This document shows, one piece after another, positions 25,758 to 43,621 of a DNA stretch of 64,000 nt. Source of the stretch: Acytostelium subglobosum LB1 (lineage: Eukaryota > Evosea > Eumycetozoa > Acytosteliales > Acytosteliaceae); contig NW_012236529.1 of NCBI RefSeq assembly GCF_000787575.1, positions 1,302,001-1,366,000 on the forward strand. Reading direction: 5' to 3'. Within the stretch, counting starts at the first letter, position 1. Every line of letters starts with the position of its first letter. Made by a program: the position numbers and the translations under genes. The notes below the pieces were generated by a model. It did no database searches, was not told the DNA's origin, and was given only the letters and a program-made list of their open reading frames with translations.

Positions 25758-28700
25758 CTACATGGGGAACAGCGGGTGCTTGGACACGCGCACCTTGGGT
25801 ATGAGCGTGTTGCGGAAAAGCACGAACGGTTCGACCGAGAGGAAGACCTCTAGCTGGCTGGCGACCTGCAGGTCATGGTCGCCCTCGTCCAGTGAGTCGA
25901 ACTCGTTCTTGTCGCAGCTGATCTCCATGTTGAAGTCCACCAGATAGATGATCAAATGTTTGGAGGGGATGGCCAGGATGACGGCGGGAGTCGTGATCGG
26001 GCCGTGCTCCCACAGGTAGAGCGCCAGATACAGGGAGCTGAGCTTCTCGGAGATCTTGCGCTTCCACGAGATCTCGTTGTAGCGCTGGCACAGCGTGCTG
26101 AGCTGGGGGCCGATTGGCAGCGACTCCTTGAAGCGCGCCAGCGCCGCTGGGTCCTGCCAGTAGGGCTTGATCGTCAGGTCGGAGGTCCACTTTACCTCCT
26201 TGTCCAGTTGGAGTGAGAGCACTCGGTGAATGTTGACGTCCATGTATCGACGTATCGGTGCAGTGAAGTGTGTATATTGTGCATGGTCTTCGTTGGACGC
26301 CATTGATGATGTTGATGTTGATGTAGTTGAGGAGTTGTTGTTGTTGTTATAGCTGCCTTGTTGTTGTTGTAGCTTGTCCAACACGGTTATGTATCGGGTG
26401 GGATCCATCAGATGGATGGTTAGACGGCGAAGTGCCTGCATCTGCTCATAAGAGAGTAGCTTGATGCACTTCTCGACCTTTTGTTTGATGACGCGCCAAT
26501 CATCGCTGGGCGCGATCGATACCTCGTTGGTGAACTGATGAATAAAGATGTTAATGCGATCAAAGAATCGCTTGCGATTGTCCAGCTGTGAGGGTGTGAT
26601 GTGCAGCGCGGCAAGTTCGTTAGACTCGGCCGTCTTCTGGGCCAGCGAGCATGGCGCATAGATGATGCCAAACTCTGTGTTGTTCTTTAGCAGCGAGATG
26701 GCCGCAACATTGTTGGCCAAATGCATGTATTCCTGAACGAGGACGTGGCTCTCTAGCTTTGGCAGCAGGTCGACGCGGAAGGGTGTGCCATCGACTGCCA
26801 ACTCATATTGGATGTTGAGGCCAATGTCAAAGATCTCGCCTCTGTCACGTCGGATGTTGTTGAGCAGCGAGCTGACCAGGTACAGGCCCCAGATCGACTT
26901 GCTCACACGCTCCTCCAGAGACTTGCTGCAACAGTTGACAAAGTCCACTCTTTCTTTGCAGACATGGTCGAGATGGATGCGGTCAAGTATCTCTTCCAGA
27001 CTCTTGCTCGAATCCTTGATGTTCATCTCACTTGCTTGATTGTTCTGATAGTTGTCAATGCATGCGTGCTGTTGCTTGTAGCGATTGATGGTCTTTTGTG
27101 CCTTCTCATAGGAGAGATGGCCCAGCGTACGCAGGAAGCTCTTGGCGAATGTGTAGGCGATCACCTTGCCGTCTGAGCGAATCTTGACGAGCAGGGAGAA
27201 GCAGAAACGCTTCTGGAACAGTCGCAGACTGCACGTGTTGGACGACAAGTTCTTGGGCAGCATAGGGATGACCGAGCCCACGAGGTATATGGCGTTGAGA
27301 CGGAACTCAGCCTCCAAGTCCAGCTTGGAGCTCTTGTCGAGGAAGTGAGACACGTCGCTGATGTGGATGCCCACCTCAAACACGCTCTTGCCCTCGTGCT
27401 TCTCATCTAGCACTCGGAAAGACAGCGCGTCGTCCAGGTCAGTAGACGAGGGTGGGTCGATCGTGATTGGACAGAGATGCGTGAGGTCGATTCGCTGCGC
27501 TTCTTCCTCCTCTGAGGGGATCCAGTCATCGTGCATGTCGCTCAGCTCTTGTGGGAAATGCTCCGAGTGGAACACTTGGTGATTGAGCAGGATGCAGCGA
27601 GTGATGGTCATGGCGTCGAGGGGAGAGCCCGAGAAGAACTGGATGTTGCCAATGGCGTAGGAGTTGTCCTCGGAGAAGTCGGTCAGGATCAGCATGGATA
27701 AGCGACCACACCGTTCGCGCATGTGGGACACACTCATGTTGGTGATGAGGTGTAGTAGTGGCGTGGACTTCTCGTAGCACCAGAAGTAGTAGACGTGTGG
27801 ATGGTCGGGGTTGTGATGGTGGTCGCCATTCATTGATCCCAATCCATTGTTGTTGCCGTTGTGGTTGCTGATGTTGTTGTTTAGCGAGCCATCGTGTGAG
27901 GAGTGGTGTGTCTTGGCGTGCGAGGGCGCAGGGATGTTCATCTTGTCCTCATGGTCCCTGATGAAGCCCGTGACTAGCGTCGCCTTGGTCTGTGGCGCGT
28001 TGAGCAGGTTTGACTGAGAGAACAGCGCAGGGAACTTCTTAAAGTTGAATGTCGAGATGCGCTGCAGCGTGCTGAGAGAGTTGGCTGGGTATATTAGGAT
28101 CTGGTCATCGCGGAGGCCGTCCAGTATGTTAAAGTACTCGGCCTGATGCGAGTGATTGGCGTGGTGATGGTGGTGTTTGCCACCAGCGGGCGACACTGGC
28201 GACATGCCAATGGGACCGTGGTGATAGTGTTGATGTTGGTTGAGTGCCATTCCCCTGGGCATCGCGTAGTCGTCCGACGACAAGTACATCGGCTCCATTG
28301 GGATCGATCCATTGAGATTGAGTGATGACTGCACAACCGCATCGTTTACGCCTTGATAGAGGATGGGCATAGAGGTGGCCAGAGGAGAGATGGTTGGCGT
28401 CTGTGCCTGGTAGTATTGGATTGGGTCGTAGTAGCTCTGTTGAGGGTTGTGATACAGGCTGGCGGGGATGTAAGATGATGCAGTGGTTGGGTCGATGTAG
28501 GCTGCAGTGTGTTGAGGTGCCGCAGCAATGTAAACTTGTTGTTGTTGCTGCTGCTGTTGCTGCTGCTGTTGTTGTTGTTGCAGTTGTTGAGCTATCGGTT
28601 GACCTTGGATTGGTTGTTGCGCTGCAAACAAAGGGAAAGGGTCTGGAGTCGTAGTCCTTATCACAGTCTTATACTCGCCATTGAATAGCAACTTGACACA

Positions 28701-29705
28701 AGGTTGGCCGCCATTCTACATCCATTCAAAGTTTGTTTGATTAGTGATTAGTTGATGCGCTCACTCATACATTCCAGTGTCCGTCCAACTTACATCAATC
28801 TTACGCTTGCCTAGGACGTTGTAGAAGACCTCTTTGGCATGCTCGGGCGAGTTGAATAGCACGTAGAGCTGGTTGGGCTTGGCAGACTGGCGGAACTCAA
28901 AGGGACGCGAGGTGTTGAGGAAGTTGATCAGGTGCATCTCTTGCATATCGGGCACAATGTTGTGGATAAAGAGTGATCGGGACGTCCACTCGGTGTTGTC
29001 CACATATGCCTCTTTCTTAATGATGCTGTCACCTGATGTGTTGCATGATGATGATGCCGTCGTGCCAGGATGATCAATCATTGTTGCTGATGTAATTGGT
29101 GAGGATGCTGATGATGTTGATGGAGTTGTTGGGGTGGCCGTGACCACGCCATTAGTCGCCTTCTTCTTTCCCTTGCCACCACCGCCACCGCCGCCACCGC
29201 CTGGGGATGACAGACCAAGCTGTAGTCTGCTGGCGGCCTGAGGTGGTGGGGTCGATGCCAGAGGTATTGTAGTCGTCGTCATTGTTGTCGATATCAATGT
29301 GGTTGTGGTCGTCGGATGAAGAGGCTGTATCGACTGTGAGAGCGAAGCAGACTGCTTTACATGTCCATGATGTGGCTTGGGTGAAGCGTGCAATGAACCT
29401 GTTGGTATGTATATATTATTATCCATTGCCGATGCTGGCTTAATGCTACCTATTCTATGTCCACCACTTCCAGCGCCTCCACCTCCTCCACCTCCAAGTG
29501 GAGGTCCATTGTTGTTGTTGTTGATATTGTTATTATTATTATTATTGTTATACTTCTTGTGATTGTTTAGGTTGTTGCTGCCGCCGCTGCCTCCACCGCC
29601 ACCGCCACTTGGTTTGTATTGTTTGCCTGGTGCAACATATGGTTGTTGTTGTTTAGGGGATGAGTATGAATGACCACTTGGTGATGATGATGATGGTCCA
29701 TTCAT
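25758..29705 (-). CDS. RNB-domain 3'-5' exoribonuclease (RNase II/Dis3-like) with RRM-like N-terminus
   Basis: Two exons: complement(join(25758..28715,28794..29705)), 1,289 residues. The N-terminal 230 residues are Ser/Gly/Asn-rich. Residues about 240-325, crossing the intron, form an RRM-like fold (RSLFIHNIVPDMQEMHLINFL...LYVLFNSPEHAKEVF). A Gln/His-rich linker follows. The RNB catalytic domain begins near residue 715 with ITIDPPSSTDLDDALSF, which keeps the aspartates that bind Mg2+ in active enzymes, unlike inactive SSD1-type members. It continues with HISDVSHFLDKSS, LFQKRFCFSLLV, QEYMHLANNVAA and HFTAPIRRYMDVNIHR. It lacks the PIN domain of Dis3 itself, so it is closer to Dis3L2-type or plant/protist RNB proteins (inference). 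Likely cytoplasmic RNA decay. The low-complexity insert between PTRYITVLDKL and DHAQYTHFTAP is unusual. Confidence 0.88.
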
Positions 29706-30730
29706 TGTACAATTGATTGATTGATTAATTGGTTAATTGATTGATTGTTGGTTTGGTTTGATTGGTTTGTTGTCTGTTTTGTTTTGATTTATGTGATGGA
29801 TGATCAGGTGACGTCACTTATCGATTAGTTGGTGTCTGTGAGTGAGCGAGTGAGGTGAATGAATGAATTAATGAATGCGCAATATAATGCGCTGGTGAGG
29901 TGTGATGATGTGACTGTTTGTTTCAATATATCTTATGTATTGATCATGTACATGTGTGATGAATAAGTAACTAATTAAGTATAATATATATATCTAAGTA
30001 TATATAAATAAATGTGGTAATTATTAAGTCAAATTGTTGTGGTCAAATGAATGAATGATTGAAAGTCAAGTGAGAATGAGTGAGTGAATCGTGAACGTGC
30101 CTGGGCTTACAATCGCAACAAACAAACAATAACAACACAGTGTTGTTGTCTTTACTTTAGTAACTGTGATAGGATGTGCGAGGATAAAGGAGGAGGAGTA
30201 AGACAAGTCCAAAACAGTTCAAAGATGTGGGGGAATGTTGGACAATGTAGGTGAACAACATGAAAAAAAGTGTACATTGGACGAGGTTAGGGCATTTGAC
30301 ATCCCTCGAGTCAAGTCGAAACTCAATATGACCCCAAACTTAGAGTGTGGTTGAATGTGTGATTGCGAGCGAAAAGAGACCAAGTCCAAAGATGTATTTT
30401 AAATTAAAATGGTCGTCTCAAGGTGGGTCATCAAGGTAGATGATATCAATTTCCCTGGGTCCATCCATCTAGCCATGAACAATCACATCAACAACAAATA
30501 CTCTATAACCTATATCGGGTATAAGATCAATGTTCAATGATACTATCAATTCCATTTCTGTTACCCTTTCAGTTGGGTCGAATCCCCAGGGTAAGAGTTG
30601 GTTGGTTGGTTGAATAGATACATATATAACCTCTAGATTAGTCTTACAATATTGTGAGTGATGACGACGGTGTGATGATGAAATCAAAGTGATTGAGTGA
30701 GTATTGATTCCTTTGATTGAATAATTGTTT
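29706..30730. promoter_or_regulatory. Upstream region of RNB gene, no gene seen
   Basis: About 1 kb of AT-rich sequence with GATT repeats next to the RNB start, then unique sequence up to the edge of the duplicated module near 30731. Open frames here are short and unsupported. Confidence 0.4.
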
Positions 30731-31249
30731 TCCAAACAAGTGAAGTTCAATATTTGGGTGAGTGTGAAATTTGAATTTGAAATTAGCTCCCATTCTCATC
30801 GAAATAACGGTTGAGTTCAAAATGGTGGTTGGTTAGATGTGGTCCACATGTCACTCACTACTCATCTCATTGGCATTGTACTCACTCTCTCCTACTTGTA
30901 CATATACACATATACATATACATATACATACTTATGCTTATACATACATACTAATACATCAATAATAAACAACACATTGACATGTATCACTCACCACGTT
31001 GTTCTGCCTTGTTGTCTCACTACTGCTGATGAGTTACTAATGAGTTTGAGTTATGAAATCAATCAATGAGTGAGTACTAATTTACTTCTAATTGCACCAC
31101 CATCTGCTGCTTACTTACACTATCCTCTTCTTCTCTGCTTCTCTTCTCTCTTCTCTTCTGCCTTCTCCTTGACCTTGTGCCTTGAAGCCCGCTGTGTGTG
31201 GTCCTTGTCCTAGTCCTTGATCACCACCTTTGTCTCCGTCACGTCCGCC

Positions 31250-32230
31250 TTGCTGCCACGTTGTAATGAACCTCTGTCACCCACTAGGCAGACCGCCGCT
31301 ATGCTGCCACTTTGACCACAGGCCAGAACCCTTGTCTCCATCTGGACTGTTGCCATGTGCCCTGAGTGACCATAGCCCTGAACCTCTGTCCAACTAGCCA
31401 GACGATGTTGCCAGCCATGTTGACCATAGCCCAGAAGCTCTCTCCAGCTAGACAGACTCCCGCCATCTGTGACTCCGCCATGATGCCCTTAGTGACCACA
31501 GCCCCGAACCTCTGTCTCAAACTAGATAGACGTCCACCGTGCTGCCATGTTCAAGTTGTCCACAGCCATGAACCTCTGTCCCATCTTGATAGACTGCCGC
31601 CGTGCTAGCCATGACCCTGTCTCCATGTTGACTGACGGTCGCCGTGTTGCCAGCCAAGTTGACCACGGCCATGTTGACCACAGCCATGAACCTCTGTCCC
31701 CAACTAGACAGACGTCCGCCGTGCTGTCACAGCCATGTTGACCACAGCCCAGAACCTCTGTCTCCAACTAGAATGAGGTCGCCATGTGAGCTAAGTGACC
31801 ACAGCCCCGAACCTCTGTCTCAAACTTGACTGGCTGACGCAGTGCTGCCACGTTCCTCTGTCTCCATCACTACAGAAGTCGGCCATGTTGCCAGCCTCTG
31901 TCTCCAACTAGACAGACTACCGTGCGCTGATGTGCCATGCTCCAAGAACCTTTGTCTCCAACTATCCGCCATGTTGACAGCCGCCATGCTGACCACCTCC
32001 ATGCTGCCAAGATGGCCACCGTCGACAACCTCTGACTCCAACCAGACAGACCGCCACGCTGACAAGTGCGCCGCCATCCTGCCATCATGCTGTCCATCTC
32101 GAGTTGACCACAGTCCAGAACCTCTGTCTCCAACTAGACAGACTGTCACAGCCAACCGCGCCGACATGCTGCCATCTGACCAAAGCCTCTGTCTCCAACA
32201 AGACAGACCGCAGACATCCTGCCAAGTTGA
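31250..32230. repeat. C-rich minisatellite, copy 1
   Basis: About 16 degenerate units of roughly 55-65 bases. Consensus words on the plus strand are CCTCTGTCTCCAACTAGACA, GACTGCCGCCATGCTGCC and AAGTTGACCACAGCCCAGAA. It is much more GC-rich than its surroundings and strand-asymmetric. No frame stays open through the array, so it is probably noncoding. It lies 3' of the unrecognised gene at 32986-34023. Confidence 0.85.
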
Positions 32231-32248
32231 CGAGTGTATCCAACTGGA

Positions 32249-32812
32249 ATGATCATAATCAAGCATTAATAAACGATGAAGACAGGAAGGAGTTGTACAA
32301 GTGTGACTTGGAAGGAGAATAACAACAATTGGAGAAGTACAACTCAATGATGTCGCCTGGGCACGGTTGCTGCCCAACGGCTTTAAAAAAAATAAAGGCA
32401 GCACTTGTGACAATGAGAAGAAACTCTCAAAGTCAACAAAGTTGCTGCCATACCTGTCTCGACGTGCCCAAAGTCTAATAGCGACAGGTGTAGTCCCCAG
32501 GCCGTGCCCACCCCTCTTACATGATGGGCCCACCCGTCCCTCTTGCATGACAGGCCGACCCATCCCTCTTGCATGATGGGCCACGGCCACCTCCTTGCGG
32601 AGATGGCCAAATGGTGATGGGAGGAAAATGTTAGTAGTATACGGTCCTGGAAAGGTCCACCTCGGCTTGGCCTGGCTTGGCTCGGCGGCATGGCACTCGG
32701 TCTGGCACGGCACTGGCACGGCACTGGATGACTTGGAGGGAATAGACCTCGCAACGACAGGTCATCGTGTGAATGAATCACAACGTCTCCACTGTGTCAT
32801 CTGGGTTCGGGT
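32249..32812. repeat. Near-identical noncoding block, copy 1
   Basis: Aligned by eye with 37713-38276, it shows only about five differences in 560 bases, far fewer than the neighbouring sequence. It contains three 26-base units (CCCTCTTGCATGATGGGCCC type) at 32512-32582 and a run of GGCTTGG/GGCACGG words around 32660-32725. It ends about 170 bases beyond the stop of the unrecognised gene, so it could be 3' UTR or a separate noncoding element. Confidence 0.8.
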
Positions 32813-32985
32813 GATGGATGTAGGACCACTGATTGGTGTGTTGGTAACTCGACTTTGATGTTGATAATATTGGTTGTTGATGTTGATGTTGGTGGTTGAT
32901 TGGTTTCAATCGCCAGCCGAGAGATATTTGGGTTTTACCCATCACTCATCTGCTTGATCGACGGCAAGATATATAGATGTGATAA

Positions 32986-34023
32986 CTATTTGAAAAGGAG
33001 AGGGACCGGAGGAGAGAAGACTGGCTCATCCACCTCATAATCTGGTGATGGTGGGTATTGGTATCTGAGTTGTTGGTGGTGGCCAATGTCTGCTTGGGTG
33101 ACTGGATGACTGGATTGTAATGTTGGATATAGTTGGTCTCCAGGTCTCGGTCCGAGGTCGGAAGGTTGTTGATTGATTTCATTGTCTTGGATGAAAAGGA
33201 CATGGACGAGGATGGTTAGTACTTGGTTTTACAGCAGACAGGCAGACATCACTCAATCAATGAATCAATGAGTTCATTTGATTTAAACATACGATTTGGT
33301 CCCATTTGATTTGGGGTGGATACTGGTTGCCTTCTGGGGTAGACAGGCAACGATCGTAATATCCTGAGACAGATACAGTGAATGAGTTGGACATTACTAT
33401 TCTCCTGGTTGAGAGGAGCGTATGGGACAGTATTCGCAATGACAAATGCGACATCAAGAGGAACCCTGCGTGAGAACCAGACTCCATCTTGATCCTTTCC
33501 AAATAAAATCTTTGGTCGCCTGTTGTCGAACAGTGGTCTGATTGGTTTGACATATGGGCGTATGAGAAGAGTCGCGCCAATGTCAATGAAGACCTTGAAC
33601 TTCCTGATGATCGTGCCTTTTTCGGTGGCCAGAAGCAAGGTCTTGGGAACTGTCGGGTCAAACAACAGTCTAAGGGGCTTGGCTGGTGGGTAGAGTGATT
33701 GAATATAATTAAATTGCATTGTAAGAATAATAATAAAGTCGAGTTGAAGAAGGCGTAGTAGTGTTGGAAAACACTGTTTAACGTGATATTCTTGTAGTGT
33801 AGATAATAGTTTGGCAAAAGCCGAAGTAGAGAGTCTATAAATAATAATAATATGATTGATTGATATTGATTGATTGATTGGTGAGAGAGAGTGAATGTTA
33901 GTATTATGAATTAAAATGATGATAGCATTTTAGTAACATTGTAATAATGTTATTTAAGTGTACATACATATAATAGTGTGATATGGTAATGAGTGATGTA
34001 AATGCCCACTTGTCCAAGGACAT
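32986..34023 (-). CDS. Unrecognised protein, paralogue A of the tandem pair
   Basis: Three exons: complement(join(32986..33185,33293..33834,33968..34023)), 265 residues. The model rests on agreement with paralogue B: both have the same exon number, phases (2 then 1), GTATGT first donor and TATAG acceptor, and open frames across the joins. The N-terminus MSLDKWAFTSLITISHYY is nearly identical in B. Three internal segments share a theme: FAKLLSTLQEYHVKQCFPTL, PAKPLRLLFDPTVPKTLLLA and YVKPIRPLFDNRRPKILFG, suggesting a repeat of about 40-50 residues. The C-terminus is Pro-rich (RYQYPPSPDYEVDEPVFSPP) and almost identical in B, whereas the middle is about 30% identical. No signal peptide or membrane helix is convincing. 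I do not recognise the family and assign no function. Confidence 0.7.
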
Positions 34024-34059
34024 TCACCGCAATGAGAGAGTCTGTGAGTGGGTGGATAG

Positions 34060-34107
34060 AGACACTCTCGCACACTCACACACACACACACACACTCACA
34101 CACACTT
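34060..34107. repeat. CA/CT-rich microsatellite upstream of paralogue A
   Basis: ACACACAC tracts interrupted by ACT, between the stop of an upstream exon (34142) and the ATG of paralogue A (34023, minus). A matching tract lies upstream of paralogue B at 39507-39557, so it is part of the duplicated module and sits in the presumed promoter or 5' UTR. Confidence 0.8.
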
Positions 34108-34141
34108 AAAGACACATTTTGAATTAAATATTTAAATATAT

Positions 34142-34352
34142 TTAATTAACAGATTGACCATTTAACAGTCCATTTGAATTTGTATCACTCAATACCATCT
34201 CAGTGTCATCTTCAATGAAGTTCACGTTGATGACCTTGATTGAGGCACGATCGTTCCAACTGGATACTCTGATGAATGAATGAGCCTTGTAGTGAGAGAC
34301 TGCTCTGATGTCCATTGTGATCTTGATGAGCTTGCATTTGATCGGTGGTGTT
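34142..34352 (-). CDS. 3'-terminal exon of a second unrecognised module gene (partial)
   Basis: Open frame ending in TAA at 34142-34144, beginning after an ACAG acceptor at 34353. It reads TPPIKCKLIKITMDIRAVSH, then YKAHSFIRVSSWNDR, then INVNFIEDDTEMVLSDTNSN. Its 3' part is conserved in the second module (VNYIDDDTEMVLNDTNSN, 39592-39700), which supports it being coding. A possible earlier exon lies at 34615..34682 (VGHIKVEHISSLSPVG), with a counterpart near 41035-41075 (NVEHIGTQYQVG). The start and remaining exons were not resolved. Function unknown. Confidence 0.45.
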
Positions 34353-36055
34353 CTGTCTGTTTGTCTGTCTCAATGTCTCTAACTGTCTGTCCGCCTGTTT
34401 ATGTATGTTTGATTAATCGATTGAATGAGGTCATAGCATCCAATATGGGCTGAGGATTGATGCTATGATCTATCTTGCTGGGACAGACTACTGATTGAAT
34501 GACTGACTGACAGGGTGGTTGTTGTATCAATGGTCAATGGTGATACATGTCGCTTGATTGGAGTTCGCCAGGTTTTGTCTTGATATGTTTGCCAGGCATG
34601 TAATCGATGTTGACCTAGAGTCTTGTTCATCAATCCCAACTGGCGATAGAGAACTAATGTGCTCGACCTTGATGTGACCGACCTGCCTGATTGACTGACT
34701 CACTGACTGACTAGCCATTCCAGCTCCTACACACCCTATTGGACAGGTTTGATCCAATGTTGTTAACGCGCTGCGTGAAACAATGTTGATGGACTGGTAC
34801 CTGCTCGCAAGATTGTCTCTCTCACTGGCGCCATGTTGACTAAATGTGTTTGCCTTTGTGATGCGATACATGGTGCCTTTCCCAATTGACGTCTAGCCAT
34901 TGTCCTCGCTATGTTGATGGACCAGTGCTGTCTAATCCTACAATGTTGCTCAGTCCTAAAGCTCTAAGGATTCATTGATGGTGAAGTGACTCGCGAGCTA
35001 CTAACGATCTATAAGTGCCACAGAGTGACCATATCATTCAAACGAAGATTGTCCACAGCGATTTTCCATTACCACGTTTGGACGTTGCTGTTCTTTGAGG
35101 ATGTAGCATCGTTCTTGCCCTTCAACTCTATTTGGTAAGTCTGCCGCGCGCCAGGTTAGTCCTAACTCAAACTCAATCAATTAATTGAATGAGTGAATGT
35201 ATACATACTCTTCGTTTCTCTGGACAGTCCCTTTGTTTGGTCTTGTCGTTGCATCTTTGTGAACTTTGAATTGAGGTCGGTGTAGCAATACTTGTCCACT
35301 TTGATCATTCTCTGAGTGTTGTCTTTTGGGACGTTGCTATAGAATCCCATGAAGGATTATGACTCGTGGTGAGGCGTCTATGCTGAAGTCAAGTGCTCCT
35401 GGAACCTTCGCATATAGGAAGGAAGGCCAGTCCAAGCAACGCCACCTAACCGATGGAGTTGGTACTGTTGATATAGCCAACCACTAGTGGTGAATCATGG
35501 CGACCAAGATGAACCCGCTATACGCAACTATGTTGAAGTGGTCGAGCCATCTGGTGATGTGGTCAATGCGTACATTTGAGGATGAATGTGCTGGATCTTG
35601 CTTGATGACTGAATTGTGGAAGATATCCTCGGTGATGGCACCTCACCATGCATGGATCTTAGTCGAGACTCGTGACAGAGAAAGATGATCAATTAATTGG
35701 TGATCCAGGCATTTGGGAGTGATACTTGGAAACCCAGATCTGGTCGGACCGACTGTCCTCAGCATCACAGACAGGACGTCTTTGTTAATAGCCACGGGTC
35801 CTGCATCAAGTAGCACACGTTAGATTGAAGCAGAGTTGACTTGATTGGATGAGGTGGTGTCCATGTCCAACTTGCCAATCTTGATTGATTGGTCGAGTCA
35901 TGACGAGACACGGACCATATTATATGTACTGATGGTTGTAATGAATGAATGAATGAAGTGTTGGACAATGATCATTGTATCCAACACTTCACAAATAAAT
36001 ATCTTGGGATTGTTCCCCCTTCAGAAGTGTTTTGGGTGACAAAAACACCTCTTGT
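34353..36055. other. Inter-module spacer with scattered module fragments
   Basis: Apart from the possible exon at 34615..34682, this region holds only short stretches related to the second module's spacer (39700-41100). One of them, around 35512-35560, encodes YVEVVEPSGDVVNAY on the plus strand; its relative around 40795-40850 (KYVEPSGDVVNAC) is on the minus strand. No intact gene was supported. Confidence 0.4.
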
Positions 36056-36529
36056 TTTAAACAAGTGAAGTTCAATATGAGTGTGAGTGAATTTTGAATT
36101 TGAAATTCGCGCCCAATCGAATCGAATTAACGGTTGAGTTCAAAATGGTGGTTGGTTAGATGTGGTCCACATGTGTCTGTGACACTGGGTCTATACTCAT
36201 CTCATTGGCATTGCACTCACTCTCTCCTACTTGTACACATACACATATATACTTACTTACTTATGCTTATACATACAATAATAAACAACACATTGACATG
36301 TATCACTCACCACTTTGTTTTGCCTTGTTGTCTCACTACTGCTGATGAGTTACTAATGAGTTTGAGTTATGATATCAATCAATGAGTGAGTACTAATTTA
36401 CTTCTAATTGCACCACCATCTGATCTGCTGCTTACTTACACTATCCTCTTCTCTTCTCTTCTCTGCCTTCTCCTTGACCTTGTGCCTTGAAGCCCGCGGT
36501 GACACTGTCGTCCTTGCCAAGTCTGAGTC

Positions 36530-37690
36530 ACCTTACCGAACCTCTGTCCCCATCTGTGCAGACGTCCGCCATGCTGCCAAGTTGTCCACAGCCCAGAACC
36601 TCTGTCTCCTACTTGACTGAGGTGGCCATTGCTTCCTTGAGTGCCCAGTACGTCTGTCTCCCCAATCAATGAGTGAGTACTACCACCGATCACAATCTGC
36701 TCACTTATACTCTGCTTACTTACACCTTTCCCTTTTCTCTCTTCTTCTCTTCTACCTTGACCTTGTGCCTTGAAGCCCTGTTCACCACCTCTGTCTCCAT
36801 CTTGACAGACTGCCGTCGTGCTTCCACGTTGACCACAGCCACGAACCTCTGTCTCCATCTGTACAGTCGTCCGCCATTCTGCCAAGTTGTCCACAGCCCA
36901 GAACCTCTGTCTCCAGCTAGACAGACTGCCAACATTGTGACTCCGCCATGATGCCCTGAACCTCTGTCTCCAACGAGACGGCCGCAGTGTTGCCAGACAT
37001 CTTACATGGCCAAGTTGACCACAGCCAAGAACCTCTGTCTCCAACTAGCAAGACGTACGCCGTGTTGCCAGCCACGTTGATCATAGCCCAGAACATCTGT
37101 CTCCAACTTGACTGACTGCCGGCGTGCTGCTACGTTGACCACACCCACGAACTCTAAATCCCTGTGTACAGTCGTCCGCCATTTTGCTAAGGGTCCAGAA
37201 CCTCTGTCTCCATCTAGACTGAAGTTGCAGTGCTGCCCTGAGTGACCACGGCCTCCCATGCTGCCCCGAGTCCATGAACCTCTGTCCCCAACTAGACTCC
37301 GCCACTGACTGCCCATGCTGACCACCACCAAGCTGCCAAGTTGTCCATCTCGAGTTGGCCACAGCCCAGAACCTCTGACTCCATCTAGACTGCCGCCATG
37401 CTGCCACGTTGACCATAGTTCAGGACCTCTGTCTCCAACTTGACTAACTGCCACGTTGACCGCCTCCAAGCTGACCACCGTCATGCTGACCGCCTCCATG
37501 CTTCCATGATGACCACCTCTGACTCAAACCAGACAGACAGCCACGCTGACAAGTGCGACGCCATGCTGCCAAGTTGTCCATCTCGAGTTGACCACAGTCC
37601 AGAACCTCTGTCTCCAACTGGACAGACGCCACGCTGACAAGCGCACCGCCATGCTGCCATCATTGACAGACCGCAGCCATCCTGCCAAGT
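36530..37690. repeat. C-rich minisatellite, copy 2
   Basis: Same family as 31250-32230: CCTCTGTCTCCAACT, AGACAGAC, GCCATGCTGCCAAGTTGACC words in units of about 55-65 bases, interrupted at 36665-36790 by a second copy of the pyrimidine-rich leader. No continuous reading frame. Confidence 0.85.
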
Positions 37691-37712
37691 TGACGAGTGT
37701 ATCCAACTGGAA

Positions 37713-38276
37713 TGATCATAATCAAAGCATCAATAAACGATGAAGACAGGAAGGAGTTGTACAAGTGTGACTTGGAAGGAGAATAACAACAATTGGAAAA
37801 GTACAACTCAATGATGTCGCCTGGGCACGGTTGCTGCCCAACGGCTTTAAAAAAAATAAAGGCAGCACTTGTGACAATGAGAAGAAACTCTCAAAGTCAA
37901 CAAAGTTGCTGCCATACCTGTCTCGACGCTGCCCAAAGTCTAATAGCGACAGGTGTAGTCCCCAGGCCGTGCCCACCCCTCTTACATGATGGGCCCACCC
38001 GTCCCTCTTGCATGACAGGCCGACCCATCCCTCTTGCATGATGGGCCACGGCCACCCCCTTGCGGAGATGGCCAAATGGTGATGGGAGGAAAATGTTAGT
38101 AGTATACGGTCCTGGAAAGGTCCACCTCGGCTTGGCCTGGCTTGGCTCGGCGGCATGGCACTCGGTCTGGCACGGCACTGGCACGGCACTGGATGACTTG
38201 GAGGGAATAGACCTCGCAACGACAGGTCATCGTGTGAATGAATCACAACGTCTCCACTGTGTCATCTGGGTAAAGC
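37713..38276. repeat. Near-identical noncoding block, copy 2
   Basis: Counterpart of 32249-32812. The three 26-base units start at 37977. A minus-strand frame of 174 codons is open here (37722-38246), but a one-base indel near 37928 splits the same frame in copy 1, so coding is doubtful. Confidence 0.8.
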
Positions 38277-38437
38277 GATGGATGTAGGACCACTGATTGG
38301 TGCGTTGGTAATCGAATTTGTTGTTGTTGTTGGTTGTTGATGTTGGTGGTTGATTGGTTTCAATCGCCAGCCGAGAGATATTTGGGTTTTACCCATCACT
38401 CATCTGCTTGATCGACGGCAATATATATAGAGGTAAA

Positions 38438-39461
38438 TTACTGTTTGTTGAAAAGGAGAGGGACCGGAGGAGAGAAGACTGGCTCATCCACCTCATAATC
38501 TGGTGATGGTGGGTATTGGTATCTGATTCCTAGGTGGTGTTGGCCTGGGTCTGCTTGGACGGCTGGATGATTGAATGGTTTAGGTGGTTGTGGCATCATC
38601 ACTTGGTCTCCAGGTATTGGTCCGAGGTCATGTGGCTGTTGTTGGATGCCAATATCTTTGAGTGACATGGATGAGAAGCATCAAAGGTGATGATTGAATG
38701 GATCGTTAGTATTATTTTTTGACAGTAGCATGCAAGTTCATTTGATATATACTTACCATTTGGAATTGGTTCCTGTTGACCATTGGGATGATCTGGCAAC
38801 TGGTTCTCTGGTAGGTTTGTCATCCCAATGAATAGAGTTTGATGGATCTCATTGTGTGGTGTATATGTTATCCTAATTGGATCATGGACTCCATCAGTGC
38901 GCACAAGAAGTGTATAAATCACCTTTTTAGAAGATTCCTCGCCCAATAACAATGTCCTTGGTCGACTATCGAATAAACTTAGAATTGGGTACATTTTGAT
39001 GACTGCTGTTTTTTTGTCAAAGTCTATCCTTATTAGGGTGATGACCCTGTGATTTAAGTCGGCCAGCAACAAGTTCTTGGGTATGTGCCTGTTGAACAAA
39101 GGTCGAATGAGTTTGGCTGGATTGTATATATATTGATTATTATTATTATTATTATTATTCATTATTGATAGATTGATTGGTAGCGTTGGAAAACACTGTT
39201 GAGAAAGATATTCTTGTATAGCAGATAATGGTTTGGCAATAGCCGAAGTAAAGAGTCTATGATATTGATGATATTGATAGATTGATATTGATTGATTGAT
39301 TGATGAATCGTTGGTGAGTAGAGAGAGAATCAATGTTAGTATTATGAATTAGAATGATGATAGAATTATAATAACATAGTAATAATGTTATTTATGTGTA
39401 CATACATGTAATAGTGTGATAAGGTAATGAGTGATGTCAATGCCCACTTGTCCAAGGACAT
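38438..39461 (-). CDS. Unrecognised protein, paralogue B of the tandem pair
   Basis: Three exons: complement(join(38438..38655,38757..39256,39406..39461)), 257 residues. The first exon gives MSLDKWALTSLITLSHYY, then exon 2 reads ILFTSAIAKPLSAIQEYL..., a poly-N run (eight Asn), PAKLIRPLFNRHIPKNLLLA and LFDSRPRTLLLG. The last exon ends RYQYPPSPDYEVDEPVFSPP-VPLLFNKQ. Introns are in the same positions and phases as in paralogue A. The central exon differs strongly from A in sequence (about 30% protein identity by eye) and by indels, while upstream DNA and the 3' end are about 85-99% identical. No known domain recognised. Confidence 0.7.
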
Positions 39462-39506
39462 TCACCGCAATGAGAGTGTCTGTGAGTGGGTGAGTAGAGA
39501 CATACC

Positions 39507-39557
39507 CACACTCACACACACACACACTCACACACTCACACACACTCACACACACTT
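39507..39557. repeat. CA/CT-rich microsatellite upstream of paralogue B
   Basis: CACTCACACACACACACT tract between the stop of an upstream exon remnant (39592) and the ATG of paralogue B (39461, minus). Equivalent to 34060-34107. Confidence 0.8.
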
Positions 39558-39591
39558 ATAAACACTCATTTTGAATTAAATATTTAAATAT

Positions 39592-40870
39592 TTAATTAAC
39601 AGATTGACCATTTAACGGTCCATTTGAATTAGTATCATTCAATACCATCTCAGTGTCATCATCAATGTAGTTCACGTTGATGAGCCTTGATTGAGGCAGT
39701 GATCGTTCCAAATGGAGTACTCTATGTGATCAGTGGTGTACTATGTGCTTGGCAAGTGGGCATTGTGATGTTGATGCGGGTACTGAGTGATTGACTGACT
39801 GGGGGTGAGCGAGTGTTGGTTCTGAACTCTCTCTCTTGATCGTGATTGAAACTCTGTCTTGAGACTAAATGGTTGTTCACCATCCTTGAGATTCGTCCTG
39901 TCCATGTTCAATGTCGATTAGCTGCTTCATGACATAAATAGTCGAATGAACGATCAAAGGAGGTGTGTTGAACTCCAGTGGTGATCTGATGATGATGCTC
40001 AAGTTCATTGCCACATCGGTGTTCATTCTTTCTAACATTATTTGCTCAGGTTCATGAATCATTCGACAGTTGTACATATTGGACAGTCTGTTCTAATGTT
40101 GTTAACGCTGTGTGAAACAATGATTCATGGACTGGTACCATCTAAAAAGCCATTGTCTGCCCATATCGTCTTTAGGTGCTGTTCAATGTATGTGCAGTTT
40201 GAGAGACTGTGATGCTGGTCCATTGCTTTGAGGATCCGTACGGATGATGTTCCAACAACTTCAAGGCGACTCACGACGTTGGTCCTGTCTTGGCACCGTG
40301 CCGTTCTGGTGACCATGCGCTGGTTCGTCATGATCGAGCGAGTCCATGCGATTGCCCTTGAGCTGATCGTTGAGGTTGTAGGTTGCGATGTAGGTCAAGG
40401 TGTCGTCGATCACACAATCGAGTGAGTCAATGCGATTGCTCTTGAGCTGCTCGTTGAGGTCGTAGGCAATGGTCACGGTGTCGGCGTTCAGGATGTCGTC
40501 CTCGTACGCACTGACAAGCTCGGCCTCGCCCTGCTTCAGCTTGCTCAGGTTAATGTTAGAAACATTACCTTGATGTGGGCTTGAAAGGCGAGCGTCGTCC
40601 TGAGCACAGAGATCTCCTTCCTGACCTTGCTTGGACATGTTGATCATAGAGTCCGAGAACTGTGTGGCGATGACTGGTTCCAAAAGACGGCACACTGCCG
40701 CGTAGCTGCATTAAGGAGAGAGTGCCAAAGTTCTTGGCGCATCACCCAGGGCGACATTGGACAAGGGCAAGCCGACTGATCAATGATCCAGCACCTCAGA
40801 GCACGCATTGACCACATCTCCAGATGGCTCGACATACTTGAATACCAATGACTTGGGCTAACGGCTACTG
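39592..40870 (-). pseudogene. Degraded coding remnants of the second module gene
   Basis: Minus-strand pieces that look coding but do not connect into one model. At 39592-39700 is INVNYIDDDTEMVLNDTNSN plus a stop, homologous to the exon at 34142-34352. At 39877-40077 is EQIMLERMNTDVAMNLSIII then FNTPPLIVHSTIYVMKQLID, whose TPP...MKQLIDIE resembles the TPP...ITMDIR of that exon. At 40261-40695 is a hydrophilic stretch with a tandem duplication (YDLNEQLKSNRIDSLD / YNLNDQLKGNRMDSLD). At 40795-40850 is KYVEPSGDVVNACSEV. Breaks between and within pieces suggest a decayed or rearranged gene. Family not recognised. Confidence 0.4.
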
Positions 40871-41109
40871 ATCACTCAATGTCTATTGCAGTTTCATGTA
40901 TTATTGAATGGTTGTCTTGATATGTTTGCCTGTGATTGATGACGACCCAGCGCCTTGTTGATCAATCACTTGGAAGTGGGTATTGATGCCATTTGAATGA
41001 GTGTAGCGCCTCACCATCTGTACAGTGCGTCACCAACTTGATATTGAGTACCAATGTGCTCGACATTCATGGGACTGGCTGACTGACTGGCTGACTGGCT
41101 GACCCATGT

Positions 41110-41825
41110 GCCATCAGTGACCAAAGCCTCTGTCTCCAACTAGACAGACGGCGTCTCGGTCATGCTGACCGTCGCCGTGCTACCAAGTTGTCCACAGACC
41201 AGAACCTCTGTCACCAACTTGACTGTCGCCATGCTCTCATGGTGTGCCTTGCACCACGAACCTCTGTCTCCAACTTGTCTGCCGCCGTGCTTCCACGTTG
41301 ACCACAGCCATGAACCTCTGCCGCCAAGCTGCCTGACCACTATGCCCTAACTATGCTGTCTGCCATGCTGCCTGACCTCTGCCGCCATGTTGCCTCTGAG
41401 TCCATGAACCTCTGTCTCCAACTAGACAAACGGCCCGCCATGCTGCCTTGAGTGACCACAGCCCTGAACCTCTGTCCCTCTATCAATAAGTGAGTACATA
41501 AATGATCGCACCATGCTCACCTATACTCTTCTTCTCTCTTCTCTATCTTCTACCCACTTTGACCTGTGCTTTGAAGCCCGCTGTGTGCTCCTTGTCCAAG
41601 TCTGAGTCCACCGAACCTCTGTGTACAGTCGTCGGCCTTGCTGCCATGTTGACCACATCCGTGAACCTCTGCTCCAACTAGCCAGACGGCCGTGTGTTGC
41701 CAGCCACGCTGACCACGGCCATATACCACAGCCATAAACCTCTGCTCCAACTGAAGTTGCAAGCCACGCTGACCACCGCCAAGTTGTCCATCTTCAGTTG
41801 ACCACAGTCCAGAACCTCTGTCTCC
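41110..41825. repeat. C-rich minisatellite, third partial array
   Basis: Same words as the two larger arrays (CCTCTGTCTCCAACTAGACA at 41128, 41409) with another copy of the pyrimidine-rich leader at about 41520-41590 (TTTGACCTGTGCTTTGAAGC). No unrecognised paralogue gene follows it, so this is a truncated right-hand copy of the module. Confidence 0.8.
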
Positions 41826-42280: not shown

Positions 42281-43621
42281 ATGGAAGAGATATCAACTAA
42301 ACAATCATTGTCATCACCTTTGTTTGATGGACGTAAGTATCATATGAAAAAAAAAAAACGAACGAACGAATGAATGAATGAATGAACTAATATTTGACCA
42401 TTCAATACAAAGACTCTGGAAAGTATAATAGTTCAACATTCTTTGGAAGATTCCAGAACTTTAGAGATGTCACAGATCCAAGGTATGTGACCCCTCCATC
42501 AATATGGAACAATTCCAACCATTCCAACAACAACTAACAATCATACTTCACTCATACTTCAAGTTCAATGTTTGTTACAGAGAACGAAGTGACAGAATCA
42601 AAGAGTATATTGGATAGATTCAAGAGAGGACTGGTCGACCCAACTACACATAATGCTGAGCTTTGGAAAGCCAAGAAAGTGGTCGATGCCACCATCCATC
42701 CAGACACTGGCGAGACCATCCCACTCCCATTCAGGATGTGTTCATTCCTACCAATCAATGTTGTAATATGTGCTGGTCTACTACTTCCCAATGCATCAGT
42801 ATGTATAATTCCCATCACCCAATCAATCAATAAATCAATCAATCAATCAATCATACTAACTCACTCTCACTCAATTGGAATAATTCCAGATTGGTACAAC
42901 AATATTCTGGCAATGGATCAATCAATCATATAATATTGCACTAAATCATGCTAATAGGAATGCAAGCAATGAGATGACAAATCAACAGATTACAACCGCT
43001 TATATGTCTGCAGTTGGTATATCATGTTCATTGGCTGTTGGTCTTGGACATGCTGTCAACAAACTCAAGATACCCAATGCCTCAGTCCATGCTGGACTCA
43101 GAATGATGGTGCCATTCACCGCCGTCACCACTGCTGGTATCGCCAACGTATTCATTATGAGAGGAAATGAGATGAAGTATGTTCATAGTCCTCCACCCCC
43201 ACCCCTCCTGGACTATCCCACTCACTCAATCAATCAATCAATTAATGTTATTTTTAGGAATGGCATTGATATTAAGGACAAGTATGGACAGGTACATGGC
43301 AAGAGTAAGGAGGCTGGAAAGTCTGCGATATTCAAGGTCGCAATGTCTAGGGTGGCTACTGCATTCCCAGCATTGTTGTTGCCACCAATGGTGATGAGTC
43401 TCGTCGAGAAACTCAGTATGGTGCAGAGGTATCCAATGGTCAAGATGCCACTGAACCTTGGTCTGCTTGCTGCCATCTTCAACACATCACTGCCGGCAGC
43501 CATTGCCATGTTCCCTCAAGAGTCCACCATTGACTCAGCCTCCCTTGAACCCGAGTTCCAGGGTCTGAAGGATGCCAACGGTGACCTGATCAGAGAGTTC
43601 ACATTCAACAAGGGACTCTAA
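42281..43621 (+). CDS. sfxn: Sideroflexin (mitochondrial amino-acid/serine carrier)
   Basis: Five exons: join(42281..42332,42413..42482,42564..42798,42890..43176,43258..43621), 335 residues, the normal length for the family. Diagnostic motifs: YNSSTFFGRFQNFRDVTDP near the start, VDATIHPDTGETIPLPFRM, then IFWQWINQSYNIALNHANRN, which contains the signature NQS...N..NRN, followed by several hydrophobic helices. Sideroflexins sit in the inner mitochondrial membrane and carry serine for one-carbon metabolism. Introns are 80-91 bases and full of AATGAATG or TCAATCAATC repeats. The downstream flank at 43660-43690 has GTCC-rich words of no clear meaning. Confidence 0.93.

Follow-up and report, generated by a model that had tools for sequence, protein, structure and literature searches.

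A 64,000-nucleotide stretch of contig C53 (positions 1302001–1366000), called the window throughout, was analysed in the 30.7-Mb, 56-contig genome of Acytostelium subglobosum, and was found to contain an array of two tandem modules in the same orientation, A (30.7–36.0 kb) and B (36.05–41.8 kb), each carrying a small gene together with a minisatellite and a noncoding core. The modules very probably belong to a low-copy dispersed family with two old gene classes, A and B, in which flanks are exchanged among units and gene bodies are kept apart. On the evidence of the sequences compared, the divergent exon of these genes is a marker of two old, stable gene types and not a hypervariable exon. One gapped assembly was the sole source of data, and all genome-search counts are lower bounds. 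The two units in the window are laid out as follows.

30726–31196, plus strand: module A leader, the left array end, with a conserved TTTGAATTTGAAATT-type stretch
31197–32239, plus strand: module A minisatellite region, degenerate units with GAACCTCTGTCTCCAACTAGACAGAC
32240–32770, no strand: module A noncoding core, conserved across copies
32986–33185, minus strand: gene A coding exon 2, placed by splice sites and reading frame, C-terminus ...PPSPDYEVDEPVFSPPVPLLFK, stop
33186–33292, minus strand: gene A intron, 107 bp, GT...AG, placed by splice signals
33293–33719, minus strand: gene A coding exon 1, class A, with 12 A-like places genome-wide
33720–34240, minus strand: gene A 5′ leader and upstream region, where class differentiation returns to about 0
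34241–36047, no strand: unit A tail, in which a remnant (34737–34801) matches the SacI-derived tail of unit B
36048–36501, plus strand: module B leader, 84.98% identical to leader A
36502–37702, plus strand: module B minisatellite region, placed by the minisatellite pattern and Tandem Repeats Finder (TRF)
37703–38235, no strand: module B noncoding core, 99.06% identical to core A
38438–38655, minus strand: gene B coding exon 2, from the splice model, with 8 B places at 92–100% protein identity
38656–38756, minus strand: gene B intron, 101 bp, GT...AG, from a scripted splice of the window copy
38757–39162, minus strand: gene B coding exon 1, class B, with 8 places genome-wide

Both genes are predicted to lie on the minus strand and to have two coding exons, with the same intron phase, and they encode proteins of 208 (A) and 207 (B) residues. 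The intron donor and acceptor were present in 10 of the 11 A copies examined, C54 having no donor match; the donor of the window's gene B was located by a second pattern, and that of C50_2 was read from the translation. The divergent exon, taken for a middle exon in a first-pass annotation of this DNA, is the first coding exon of the gene, and the additional 5′ bases assigned to it there run into the leader, with the frame broken in several copies. Between A and B, the exon-1 proteins are 29% identical, in line with the roughly 30% estimated earlier; over the gene body, identity is 29–32% for protein and about 50% for DNA, and the classes are recognisably homologous (best cross-class expectation value, E, about 1e-6).

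The two modules were aligned and their identity was read in blocks of 100 columns. It was 82–99% in the leader, 42–86% in the minisatellite, 85–100% over 32173–33066, 75% over 33067–33154, 40–59% over the gene body (33155–33752) and 74–95% over 33753–34319; a last block at 47% holds 15 aligned columns only. The cores (32240–32770 and 37703–38235) were 99.06% identical over 533 columns, with about five differences. The array with its near-identical noncoding block, and the dip in identity between more similar flanks, are thus as first described. The accompanying claim, that divergence is higher in the exon than in introns and flanks, holds for the flanks and fails for the one intron of the gene: positions 33220–33279, within the intron, differ by 0.61 between the classes, like the exon, and the divergent block reaches from within exon 2 as far as the 5′ leader.

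Leader, minisatellite, core and gene were found together on 11 contigs. Of the 26 matches to a probe of the core plus its 3′ sequence, spread over 11 contigs, two were off-site (C55:966605, 251 bases, 84%; C23:51604, 43 bases). By our own tally of the protein-query search rows, exon 1 has 12 A-like places (nine full length, plus a partial one at C56, a diverged one at C54 and a broken one at C43:749) and 8 class-B places, all covering the exon at 96–100% protein identity, the one at C43 with an in-frame stop. Exon 2 was matched at all 20 exon-1 places (at C43:749 with E 5e-4 only) and weakly at C56:1069668 (E 0.03). Tandem A–B order was seen at C53, C21, C40, C41 and C50, and B–A order at C55. 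On C43, A and B lie 46 kb apart in opposite orientation; C56 has two inverted A copies, C23 has A alone, a second leader at C54 runs into an assembly gap, and C1 has a B unit near the end of an 11-kb contig. Core-to-core spacing was about 5.4–6.1 kb at the six tandem sites. The fetched flanks outside the module had little in common, bar short or local repeats (e.g. C40 near 257–258.6 kb), in a comparison that included hardly any flank for C54, C23 and C55.

Within each class, the gene body is conserved. Its identity exceeded 96% in nine of 11 A copies and all seven B copies compared, the window's own included, which contradicts the earlier description of the exon as hypervariable and illustrates how comparing two copies can make a conserved exon look so. 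Relative to the window's A copy, the 10 other A copies were 96.5–98.8% identical, except C50 (90%) and C54 (82%), and one of the nine, C56_1, was compared over 380 of 598 bases; relative to the window's B copy, the six other B copies were 96.6–99.3% identical. Identity to the window was 82–96% in the segment 33850–34140. The exon-1 proteins were at least 97% identical in 8 of 9 full-length A places and at least 96% identical in all 8 B places. The ratio of nonsynonymous to synonymous polymorphism (pN/pS) was 0.368 for exon 1 and 0.357 for exon 2 in eight A copies (C50_1, C56_1 and C54 excluded, C50_1 being computed separately), and 0.364 and 0.324, respectively, in seven B copies (sums over all pairs). 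Within-class values of about 0.36 therefore indicate purifying selection, not diversification. For the A–B pair in the window, nonsynonymous and synonymous divergence (dN and dS) were 0.76 and about 2.8 in the exon; this ratio, also called for at first pass, says little because synonymous sites are saturated between the classes. A variant middle stretch of exon 1 is present in C50_1 (L012:6563–6988) and C54 (L031:3063–3338), and because the broken copy C43:749225–749597 carries a stretch related to it, a minor A subtype appears to exist; the variant copies suggest either a third type of sequence or a mosaic of older origin.

Class differentiation along the unit was profiled with a measure resembling the fixation index (Fst-like) in nine A and six B copies, with C55_1, C56_1 and C54 excluded. 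It was about 0 over 32260–32799, 0.34–0.42 to 33039, 0.80–0.84 to 33159 and 0.90–0.98 to 33759, and then fell through 0.79 (at 33760), 0.66, 0.38 and 0.30 to near 0 from 34000 (0.17 in one interval), reaching 0.00 at 34239 in the region upstream of gene A. The peak sits on the coding sequence (33160–33759), intron included. Polymorphic sites were counted in the same copies. The core has 24 polymorphic sites in A and 24 in B, of which 11 are shared (0.37 expected from recurrent change) and none is a fixed difference, and the four-gamete test fails for 14 of its 36 informative site pairs. In the gene body, 73 sites are polymorphic in A and 23 in B, none of them shared (1.09 expected), and there are 236 fixed differences. 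Along the intervening DNA, there were 7 shared and 2 fixed sites in 32800–33039, 2 shared and 15 fixed in 33040–33159, 7 shared (1.42 expected) and 10 fixed in 33758–33999, and 9 shared (1.63 expected) and none fixed in 34000–34239. Because sites are shared in the core, whereas the body has 236 fixed and none shared, the flanks have evidently passed between classes and between loci, and the gene body, with its small intron, has stayed apart, which bears out the proposal, made at first pass as one of two options, that gene conversion homogenised the flanks and spared the exon. Among 17 cores (C55_1 excluded), identity averaged 98.42% within A, 98.27% within B and 98.42% between A and B, and the A and B cores of C41 are identical. 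The broken C43:749 copy and the C1 copy, the latter known only by its search rows and initial 100 bases, stand outside the core matrix, class profile, site counts and pN/pS.

We therefore favour a family of units of about 5.3–6.1 kb in short arrays, often with one of each ancient class, A then B, in which each unit would encode, in two exons, a protein about 208 residues long. Ectopic gene conversion or unequal crossing-over would move the noncoding parts between classes and between loci far apart; the case for exchange itself is based on the shared polymorphisms, which do not distinguish the two processes. The gene bodies would be too different to recombine readily and hence lie outside the exchange, and purifying selection, as read from pN/pS, would keep each class intact. 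Exchange would stop within exon 2 on one side and within the 5′ leader on the other, hence the sharp divergence peak.

Several points weigh against this account. In six same-locus A–B pairs (one of them, on C43, 46 kb apart), the cores were weakly more alike than those from different loci (98.66 vs 98.35%, permutation P 0.05), and the same-locus effect in five other segments had P values from 0.08 to 0.78. With so weak a likeness, local conversion is not clearly shown; since same-locus pairs are barely more alike, exchange appears to take place between loci too. Between the classes, exon 2 has a pN of 0.160 against a pS of 0.174, which is near neutral. C50 and C54 lie outside the class-A pN/pS, and C50 compared with A has a dN of about 0.10 and a dS of about 0.19, a ratio near 0.5. 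Selection for difference may not be needed, since lack of homology could by itself hold the bodies apart mechanically, and misassembly among near-identical repeats could mimic some of the exchange.

Three other explanations were considered. If the unit were an ordinary transposable element carrying two open reading frames (ORFs), this would account for the dispersed copies, for flanks with little in common beyond the module and for the fairly constant left end. We regard this as unlikely, however: neither gene has a Pfam match, no transposase was found in the two tail ORFs searched (one without a match, the other with a sub-threshold DUF5577), no inverted copy of the left-end 18-mer (up to four mismatches) was found near the right end of the window array, the right ends are ragged, and spliced genes argue against copying through RNA. 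Insertion targeted to transfer RNA genes was also rejected, there being none in the window and 23 loci (ARAGORN, bacterial code). It is more doubtful still that a single conversion replaced the flanks of one class and that the A–B pair then spread as a block with no exchange since. Star-like spread of this kind would give the nearly equal core identities within and between classes and would suit the core-to-core spacing at the tandem sites, but it is opposed by the excess of shared core polymorphisms, unless the shared sites reflect mutation hotspots or assembly errors, and by the site pairs failing the four-gamete test. Least probable is the first-pass inference of a hypervariable exon under diversifying selection, whether through an arms race or through recognition: exon 1 differs greatly between the two copies in the window, and the full-length A copy C50 has only 83% protein identity, with differences bunched in the middle stretch of which similar variants occur in C54 (76% over 1–93) and the broken C43:749 (50%), but the high within-class protein identities, a pN/pS of 0.37 (A) and 0.36 (B) in exon 1, a dN below dS for C50 and the absence of a TIG or other Pfam domain all stand against it.

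The proteins themselves gave few clues. Neither has a Pfam match up to E 10, including to TIG/IPT, or a hydrophobic stretch of membrane strength (best 19-residue Kyte–Doolittle mean 1.25 in A and 0.76 in B), which gives no support to a recognition locus of the tgr kind, and a tgr-like receptor was rejected. Searches against PHROGs gave no match and those against viral contigs none that was confirmed; a PDB profile search returned a single weak match (E 1.3). An AlphaFold2 model of B exon 1 aligned with A had a mean predicted local distance difference test score of 43, too poor to use, with two runs of strands. Net charge is +7 in A and −2 in B. We infer that A and B may be two soluble, functionally distinct, co-regulated partners with shared regulatory DNA. 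Going further, the A–B pair could be a selfish two-gene element, its partner proteins acting as a linked pair in conflict or drive and its core helping it to replicate or spread, perhaps by way of a DNA circle, a conjecture that we hold to be unlikely; such a circular intermediate, if real, would explain the permuted B–A order at C55 and the ragged array ends. The gene family has no relative in the libraries searched (Pfam, PHROGs and viral contigs), the present genome being the only eukaryotic one covered, and the pattern itself is of a known kind.

The yeast HML, MAT and HMR mating-type idiomorph cassettes likewise hold two unlike gene cores in shared flanks in several copies; unlike them, the present family has about 20 copies, with both classes often side by side and A and B recognisably homologous. 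For duplicated genes under gene conversion, a "peak of divergence" has been described, as in exon 5 of the human red/green opsins (Teshima and Innan; review PMC3924837). As far as that account goes, the modules resemble such duplicates in their homogenised flanks, shared polymorphisms and divergence limited to part of the gene, and differ from them in having about 20 units on 11 contigs, in divergence at about 50% of sites with the intron included, and in that the segment most alike across units is the noncoding core. Most genes of the wtf meiotic-driver family of Schizosaccharomyces pombe contain five or six exons; in the drivers, a single gene yields both poison and antidote, Tf elements or long terminal repeats frequently lie alongside, and segmental duplication has been proposed as the means of spread (PMC6526906). 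The modules similarly form a family of spliced genes, present in many copies at a number of loci, with repeats and with gene conversion between nonallelic copies; they have two exons and two gene classes, and the likeness rests on sequence, not on killing activity. TgrB1 and TgrC1 of Dictyostelium are polymorphic transmembrane allorecognition proteins (preprint PMC12324515), and their genes too are a social-amoeba pair with recombination and duplication at the locus, although the present proteins have neither a TIG/IPT domain nor a membrane segment that we could find. Literature searches on Acytostelium subglobosum and gene conversion and on the Dictyostelium mating-type locus returned nothing on those subjects; the searches were limited, and we do not conclude from them that the family has gone unpublished. 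The family offers a clean natural example of two gene types kept apart inside DNA that is exchanged across many loci.

The core was 96.6–100% identical among the 17 copies compared, irrespective of class. As a rough yardstick, average identity was 97.4% for the core, 95.4% (A) and 98.3% (B) for exon 1, 86.3% for the leader and 90% for matched tail pieces, the last if anything flattered because only still-matching pieces were counted. Since copies resemble one another more closely in the core than in the matched tails of their units, the core is either constrained or converted most often, and we infer that it is a functional noncoding element of the unit, for which this contrast is a specific lead. 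It folds better than shuffled sequences on both strands (z −3.2 on plus, −3.7 on minus), which is no proof of an RNA. A coding gene was rejected, as the long minus-strand frames of single copies are not kept open across copies, and so were Rfam families, all eight matches falling below gathering scores; the best were two SCARNA7 matches (E about 1e-5, score 37 vs 65) overlapping CA-rich repeats. A role for the module as a centromere marker, with one locus per contig, was set aside: random placement puts 11 or 10 sites all on distinct contigs with P = 0.15 or 0.21.

Genome-wide, the module A leader has 17 long matches, every one at a module site; one is the leader itself, and the remaining 16 are 81–88% identical to it. 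Five short matches (36–88 bases) lie elsewhere. In 7 of the 11 leaders compared, a conserved TTTGAATTTGAAATT-like stretch (noted in the window leaders at 30726–31196 and 36048–36501) is followed by GCGCCC, which is possibly a candidate promoter site and may be E2F-like. All 60 genome-wide matches to the minisatellite pattern (up to two mismatches) fell at module sites, with none for the reversed control, and TRF reported a 58-bp period in the module B minisatellite. Upstream of the genes, a conserved short open end (...DTNSNGPLNGQSVN-stop; 34146–34340 in the window, and homologous segments) was matched by protein search in 27 pieces, all at module sites, with frames often broken.

Two further features lie towards the right of the array.

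40050–40833, minus strand: decayed SacI/inositol 5-phosphatase (synaptojanin-type) host-gene fragment in the unit B tail
41100–41825, plus strand: minisatellite of a truncated third unit, the right array end, matching the A and B minisatellites

To the left of the array are an RNB-domain gene (25758–28691, minus strand) and, beside it, a minus-strand ORF (28761–29705) without a Pfam match; a sideroflexin gene (42568–43621, plus strand) lies to the right. The G+C content of the window is 46.05%, and the A+T content of the genome is given as 55.0% (PMC4334915). The SacI-type fragment has 75% DNA identity to C49:705587–706231 and matches in pieces and in different frames. The related gene at C49:704200–707200 (L081) is open over the 718 codons fetched, with Syja_N and Exo_endo_phos2, and similar SacI-type pieces occur in unit tails at C41, C43, C50, C54 and C21. 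Another piece of the unit B tail, of about 79 bp (about 39949–40027), recurs at C50:644405, C50:669368, C36:402325, C36:421211 and C36:421666 with 81–95% identity and is probably a small separate repeat.

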